A DNA stretch of 64,000 bases, from positions 62,001-126,000 of the forward strand of contig NZ_JADBGG010000007.1 in the NCBI RefSeq assembly GCF_014873765.1. Reading direction: 5' to 3'. This stretch comes from Desulfomicrobium macestii. Its GTDB lineage: Bacteria > Desulfobacterota > Desulfovibrionia > Desulfovibrionales > Desulfomicrobiaceae. Shown here in pieces: positions 17,381 through 60,200 of this stretch. The notes under the pieces were generated by a model. That model worked only from the letters and a program-made list of their open reading frames with translations. It ran no database searches and was not told where the DNA came from. The stretch's first letter is position 1. Each line of letters starts with the position of its first letter. The position numbers and the translations under genes were made by a program.

Positions 17381-17543
17381 GGAAACTCCTTGGCACAATA
17401 TATTTAAGATGGCTGCGCAACGACCATGATACGTCGTCCCTGTCCTTAAATCGGACTGACGAGACAACAGCGCGAGCGCTTAATTACGATCGGCAAGGAG
17501 TGTATGAGAGACTGGCTGTTGGAAGGGGCGAACCAGATAAAAG

Positions 17544-17715
17544 CCCCGGAAGGCAGTGTTGGGAATCATTTTGAACCTCTTAAGTTAAGAGGGGGTTGGC
17601 TACAGCCCATCAGGCTTCTTCGGCTGCCCGAAGCGTGCACACAAGACCGTTGTAAGCTACCCGTATTGCGCTTTATTGGCTCAAAAACGCATCACCAATC
17701 ACTGACCCTCCAGGG
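17544..17715 (-). ncRNA. ssrS: 6S RNA (SsrS)
   Basis: Read on the minus strand, the region carries hallmarks of proteobacterial 6S RNA. The 5' end CCCTGGAGGGTCAGTG can pair with the 3' end CACTGCCTTCCGGGG. A TGAGCCAATA block matches the conserved E. coli TGAGCCGATA. A CTTCGGGCAGCCGAAG hairpin is followed by AAGCCT, as in the classical closing stem. 6S RNA mimics an open promoter and binds sigma-70 RNA polymerase in stationary phase. It lies just downstream of zapA, the same linkage as in E. coli. Ends are estimated from pairing. Confidence 0.87.
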
Positions 17716-17725
17716 TACTTGTTCA

Positions 17726-59655: not shown

Positions 59656-59949
59656 ATGAGAAAGCACTTTTTTCTGCTCACCCTGCTTTTATTTTTGACA
59701 ACCCCGGCCCAGGCCGCGGATCTTCGCTGCCAGGGCGATCTCATGACCCCCGGCACCATCATCACCAAGGTCCGCCAAAAATGCGGCGATCCCCGGTGGG
59801 AAGACCGCATCGGTGAGGTCACGAGGACAAACTGCGGCGGAGAACGCCTCCTCTACATCACTCAGCTGACCTATGAGGCCAGCGGCGGATATTACGTCCT
59901 GACCTTCGAAGGCGGCGAGCTCAAGCAAACGGAGTTCTTTCAGAAATGA
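59656..59949 (+). CDS. Exported DUF2845 protein
   Basis: A 97-residue protein with a signal peptide (MRKHFFLLTLLLFLTTPAQA) and the DUF2845 pattern: DLRCQGDLMTPGTIITKVRQ, KCGDP and TNCGGERLLYITQL, with three Cys residues likely forming disulfides. The final strand EGGELKQTEFFQ closes the fold. The function is unknown; the domain resembles SmpA/BamE-like small beta folds. Its stop lies 26 bases before the selenoprotein start, so the two may share a transcript. Confidence 0.8.
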   Translation: MRKHFFLLTLLLFLTTPAQAADLRCQGDLMTPGTIITKVRQKCGDPRWEDRIGEVTRTNCGGERLLYITQLTYEASGGYYVLTFEGGELKQTEFFQK

Positions 59950-59975: not shown

Positions 59976-60200
59976 ATGCAGATACAAATCGTCTACTGCG
60001 GTTTGTGAATGGGCTATGAAGCACGCGCCGCAAGTCTTGCGGAAAGATTGCGCTCTGATGCAGGAGCCACCGTATCCCTTACGCGCGGGAGCAGAGGCGA
60101 CTTCGAAATTCTGCTTGGCGACACACTGATATATTCCAAACAGCAAACCAGACGCATCCCAAGTTCCGATCAGATCCTGGGGCTTTTGCGACAAACTTGA
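59976..60200 (+). CDS. SelW-like (Rdx family) selenoprotein with in-frame UGA
   Basis: A 74-residue frame if TGA 60006-60008 is read as selenocysteine (residue 11). The N-terminus MQIQIVYCGLU then MGYEARAASLAERL matches the Rdx/SelW pattern, a beta strand with CxxU or CxxC followed by an R-A-rich helix. Later residues DFEILLGDTLIYSKQQ and RRIPSSDQILGLL match the G-x-F-E-I and I/L-x-S strand order. GGGAG lies about nine bases before ATG 59976. A stem-loop SECIS candidate follows. These small redox proteins handle thiols; partners are unknown. The alternative of a pseudogene is unlikely because both sides conform to the family. Confidence 0.85.
60028..60042 (+). promoter_or_regulatory. Candidate bacterial SECIS hairpin
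   Basis: The arms CCGCA (60028-60032) and TGCGG (60038-60042) enclose AGTCT. The loop starts A-G, as does the E. coli fdhF loop AGGTCT, whose G contacts SelB. The stem begins 20 bases after the TGA, within the distance range reported for bacterial SECIS elements. Confidence 0.6.

Follow-up and report, generated by a model that had tools for sequence, protein, structure and literature searches.

A SelW-like gene of Desulfomicrobium macestii, easily missed by gene finders, with an in-frame UGA codon and a predicted SECIS hairpin

Introduction

In a 64,000-nucleotide stretch of the Desulfomicrobium macestii genome (hereafter, the window), an ATG at 59976 opens a forward-strand frame that meets a TGA after ten codons and then continues for 63 sense codons to a second TGA at 60198-60200. 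The question that this locus raises is whether the first TGA, at 60006-60008, is a stop or a selenocysteine (Sec) codon. The initial annotation, made from the letters of the DNA, proposed an overlooked selenoprotein of the SelW kind; the bases that it described, an in-frame TGA following MQIQIVYCGL and 63 codons after it, are indeed those of the window. We combined family models, homologue comparison, analysis of RNA pairing and a survey of the source genome, and conclude that the locus is a genuine gene, of a sort that gene finders easily miss, and that it almost certainly encodes a cytosolic SelW-like protein of the Rdx family with Sec inserted at the UGA in codon 11.

Results

The elements of the gene are as follows.

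59976..60200, + strand: selW-like gene of a predicted selenoprotein, 74 residues with U11; stop TGA at 60198-60200
59997..60008, + strand: C-G-L-U redox motif (CxxU); no variation at C8 or TGA11 among 20 homologues
60006..60008, + strand: predicted selenocysteine codon UGA (codon 11); TGA across homologues, Cys in stop-free ones
60028..60042, + strand: predicted bacterial SECIS hairpin, stem CCGCA/TGCGG, loop AGTCT; pairing and covariation in 55 homologues

With the in-frame TGA read as U, the frame (MQIQIVYCGL-U-MGYEARAASLAERL...) matches the Pfam family Rdx (PF10262) over its whole length with 51.1 bits (cut-off 22.6, E 1.6e-13) and the NCBIfam model TIGR02174, CXXU_selWTH, with 47.9 bits (cut-off 34.2), in line with the assignment to SelW/Rdx proteins for which the initial annotation had suggested a family comparison. 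The part after the TGA alone matches Rdx with 39.9 bits (E 5e-10), such that a full Rdx domain, rather than an end of the protein at residue 10, is predicted. Given these E-values and a TGA conserved throughout the 20 homologues first compared, chance does not account for the read-through protein. Cys8 is encoded at 59997-59999, and C8-G-L-U11 places the TGA where SelW/Rdx proteins carry the U of CxxU, as had been claimed.

Among solved sequences, the protein matches C17orf37 (E 0.0085); its matches to Atu0228 and mouse SelW are weaker. An AlphaFold model built from 20 homologues (mean pLDDT 94.2) predicts the order beta-alpha-beta-beta-beta-alpha, with C8-G-L-U11 after the strand formed by residues 2-8, and the best PDB matches of this model are SelW-related proteins (TM about 0.8-0.9), consistent with the thioredoxin-like fold of solved Rdx members.

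The standard ORF listing gives, for this locus, only a 63-residue piece at 60009-60200, the very truncation anticipated for ordinary gene calling, and as regards such calling the gene is fairly described as overlooked. Could this piece, with its ATG at 60009 just past the TGA, be the real gene, and the ten upstream codons a matter of chance? It is what an ORF finder reports and it scores for Rdx by itself; however, only a minority of the homologues have ATG directly past the TGA, with CTG, GCG, AAG, GGA or AAC elsewhere, conservation at the protein level extends to the ten upstream codons (I5, Y7 and C8 are invariant in 20 of 20 homologues), and the product would lack both the CxxU motif and the first beta strand. 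Comparison of the homologues thus led us to reject an internal start, which we consider very improbable. Less credible still is a pseudogene or sequencing error that placed a stop in a Cys-type Rdx gene, which would take one substitution (TGT or TGC to TGA) but is refuted by the presence of TGA at the same codon, followed by intact frames, in 15 family-group genomes and dozens more, and by the conservation of silent sites within the hairpin.

The selenoprotein reading is further borne out by the wider distribution of the gene. Apart from the source genome, the gene was found with exactly one TGA in 14 of the 60 relatives searched, and five further loci lie in records titled Burkholderiales, Betaproteobacteria, Holophagae or uncultured bacterium. 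Codon 11 is TGA in each of the 20 homologues first compared, and a phylum survey detected Rdx in 57 of 395 genomes, with a TGA inside 53 of the 58 Rdx matches. Inspection of stop-free homologues revealed Cys at the Sec site in four genes (L055/L089, L085, L086, L087); this alternation of TGA and Cys at codon 11 is the Sec/Cys exchange typical of selenoprotein families. The initial annotation had held that a sense codon other than Cys at this site would speak against its proposal; the Cys codons of the four stop-free genes favour the proposal, and the one exception, a Gly codon in a tandem paralogue, does not. This paralogue belongs to a pair of Rdx genes in G617 (L088), in which a CGS-TGA copy is followed by a CGSG copy that has neither a selenium nor a sulfur residue at the site and stands beside the Sec copy. 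Two genomes of the same genus (G005 and G011) yielded no match to the SelW-like gene, which therefore appears to be dispensable.

Two Rdx genes, those of G018 and G021, had been considered as TGA-free candidates and were rejected as such: their DNA has C-G-L-TGA or C-S-L-TGA immediately ahead of the matched stretch. In these genomes (L053, L052), the diverged Rdx selenoprotein genes have a hairpin of differing sequence and seem to begin before the DUF2845 gene has ended. A separate observation concerns L090 (G414), where an Rdx gene with the Sec TGA carries an extra in-frame TAG downstream; decay, recoding and assembly error are alternative explanations.

The hairpin CCGCA-AGTCT-TGCGG described in the initial annotation was confirmed in sequence and position, beginning at the 20th base past the TGA. 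In its open form, it has 5 pairs and an AGUCU loop 24 nt from the UGA; an A-U pair can close the AGTCT loop to GUC, giving 6 pairs and placing the loop 25 nt past the UGA. Shuffled sequences fold with comparable energy (z 0.2), and a hairpin with at least 6 pairs and a G in the loop lies within the SECIS range of about 10.6% of the TGA trinucleotides in the window. On its own, the hairpin is therefore unremarkable and weak evidence, and we set folding energy aside in favour of covariation.

Covariation gave a clear signal. The hairpin cells are paired in 99.1% of cases among 19 distinct homologues (covariation score 0.275) and in 97.0% among 55 (score 0.448), and neither score was reached in any of 500 shuffles; double-sided changes in the 55 homologues number 38, compared to 8.6 expected in shuffles, a control that is weakened by the kinship of the sequences. 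Slid structures, a control that keeps this kinship, were paired in only 24-50% of cases in the 55 homologues. The changes are largely silent, the third bases of Ala19 and Leu21 being A/T, C/G or G/C. Moreover, Ser20 is encoded by AGT in all 17 sequences with Ser at that residue, compared to 8% of the Ser codons in the long ORFs of the window.

The published model of the bacterial SECIS (PMC13188914) stipulates a stem of 4-16 pairs, a loop of 3-9 nt with G in one of the first two positions and the pattern N1-G-[G/U]-N-N2, a distance of 16-37 nt from the UGA and an MFE of at most -7.5. The window hairpin conforms to these rules in stem length, loop pattern, spacing and energy (45-nt MFE -9.3). 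Together with the covariation, this fit upholds its earlier description as SECIS-like and suggests that the hairpin at 60028-60042 is a bacterial SECIS.

The 4.5-Mb source genome (G000) encodes the complete set of selA, selB, selC and selD, the absence of selB or selC having been named beforehand as a ground for abandoning the proposal. The selC match is a tRNA-Sec (86 bits, anticodon TCA), selA and selB score 623 and 360 bits, respectively, and selD itself contains an in-frame TGA (...SAAGUAAKLAP). Three formate dehydrogenase alpha genes were identified.

G000:C6:61373-64396, C9:96667-99690 and C31:1933-4938: formate dehydrogenase alpha genes

Two of the three contain an in-frame TGA, the first of these with the motif ARI-U-HSATVAALAESFGRG, and the third is stop-free, such that Sec and non-Sec forms of the enzyme appear to coexist in this genome. 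In the [NiFeSe] hydrogenase, the TGA aligns with the non-standard residue X of the otherwise nearly identical protein in PDB 4kl8, which we take to be the D. baculatum enzyme. A scan of the gaps in the window for further read-through ORFs returned many frames, none recognisable by eye as a selenoprotein. The only Rfam match of the window is a 6S RNA (RF00013, 60 bits) at 17539-17719 on the minus strand.

The genes around the selW-like gene are as follows.

59656..59949, + strand: exported DUF2845 protein, 26 nt upstream of the selW-like gene; PF11006, 25.8 bits
60345..60944, + strand: NAD(P)H oxidoreductase (Flavodoxin_2), 144 nt downstream of the selW-like gene; PF02525, 147 bits
60963-61817, + strand: 284-residue protein; no Pfam match at E up to 1

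The position of the gene after an exported DUF2845 protein, noted in the initial annotation, is supported by the PF11006 match. The 284-residue protein is 84-98% identical across the genus and hydrophobic by eye, and is likely to be a membrane protein of no recognised family. The order aspA (minus strand), DUF2845, selW-like gene, flavodoxin-type oxidoreductase and 284-residue protein is kept in most of the genus genomes that bear the gene. The oxidoreductase is a genus-level neighbour of SelW, found there in 12 genus genomes; DUF2845 adjoins SelW in 12 genomes of the genus and also in G018 and G021, which belong to another genus of the same family and in which the DUF2845-SelW pair was all that was seen in the flanks examined.

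The DUF2845 gene is a possible operon partner of the selW-like gene. Whether the two also form a functional pair, with SelW serving the export or redox state of the DUF2845 protein or both answering the same stress, is doubtful. The genes are adjacent on the same strand, 26 nt apart, and the pair is kept in the 12 genus genomes as well as in G018 and G021, there without matches to the other neighbours. However, G016 and G020 have DUF2845 without an adjoining SelW, G004 and G017 have SelW without a DUF2845 match, no DUF2845 was found in the flanks of the SelW loci of G010, Burkholderiales or other lineages, and the DUF2845 protein is predicted to be exported, as opposed to the predicted cytosolic SelW. 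The pairing is thus seen within one family and is not obligatory, and we give marginally less credence still to the idea that, in this bacterial family, a Sec-containing redox protein and an exported DUF2845 protein work together as a small functional module. No paper on DUF2845 was found in the literature collection searched.

Discussion

The results translate into a simple model for the selW-like gene. Under this model, translation would start at 59976, SelB bound to the hairpin at 60028-60042 would deliver Sec-tRNA(Sec) at the UGA of codon 11, and, with Sec inserted at residue 11, translation would run on to codon 74. The product would fold into a small domain of the thioredoxin type. Its C8 and U11, brought together after the first beta strand, could act as a selenenylsulfide/selenol-thiol pair in thiol-based redox reactions. 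To our knowledge, the physiological substrate of bacterial SelW has not been established; its most likely role would be thiol-disulfide or peroxide reduction.

With the present analysis, the selenoproteome of a probable sulfate reducer gains a well-supported member, and the case illustrates how standard gene callers truncate short selenoproteins that have an N-terminal UGA. The function of bacterial SelW could be tested in this conserved neighbourhood, with the upstream exported DUF2845 gene as the one less-known element of the locus.

This is a well-known kind of gene, from a selenoprotein family that has been on record in bacteria since 2005. In the Sargasso Sea data, SelW-like ranked first in abundance among the selenoprotein families (PMC1088965), and recent selenoprotein catalogues carry it as PF10262, CxxU (PMC9312934, PMC13188914). 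The window protein shares with these bacterial proteins the length, the N-terminal CxxU, the UGA with a downstream bSECIS and the Rdx fold, and differs in that, in most genomes of its genus, there is one extra residue between U and G-Y. Other Deltaproteobacteria, such as Desulfotalea and Geobacter, also have members; a 2006 table lists SelW-like proteins for these two, and none for Desulfovibrio vulgaris or D. desulfuricans (PMC1794560).

In Epsilonproteobacteria, SelW genes were found in 2015 to have been wholly missed by annotation (PMC4607533). Ribo-seq and mass spectrometry have detected the full-length SelW of Campylobacter jejuni (PMC11955535), an 80-residue Rdx protein that was likewise absent from the original annotation and that has UGA-coded Sec, as predicted for the window protein. 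However, the window protein scores 58.2 bits against the SelTWH_Campy equivalog model (NF041051), below its cut-off of 88, and is therefore not that equivalog. The predicted fold is that of the bacterial SelW-related structures 2p0g, 2fa8, 2obk, 2ojl and 3dex over the whole chain, and is shared with mouse SelW (2npb), although the identity to the solved SelW-related proteins is only about 25-29%.
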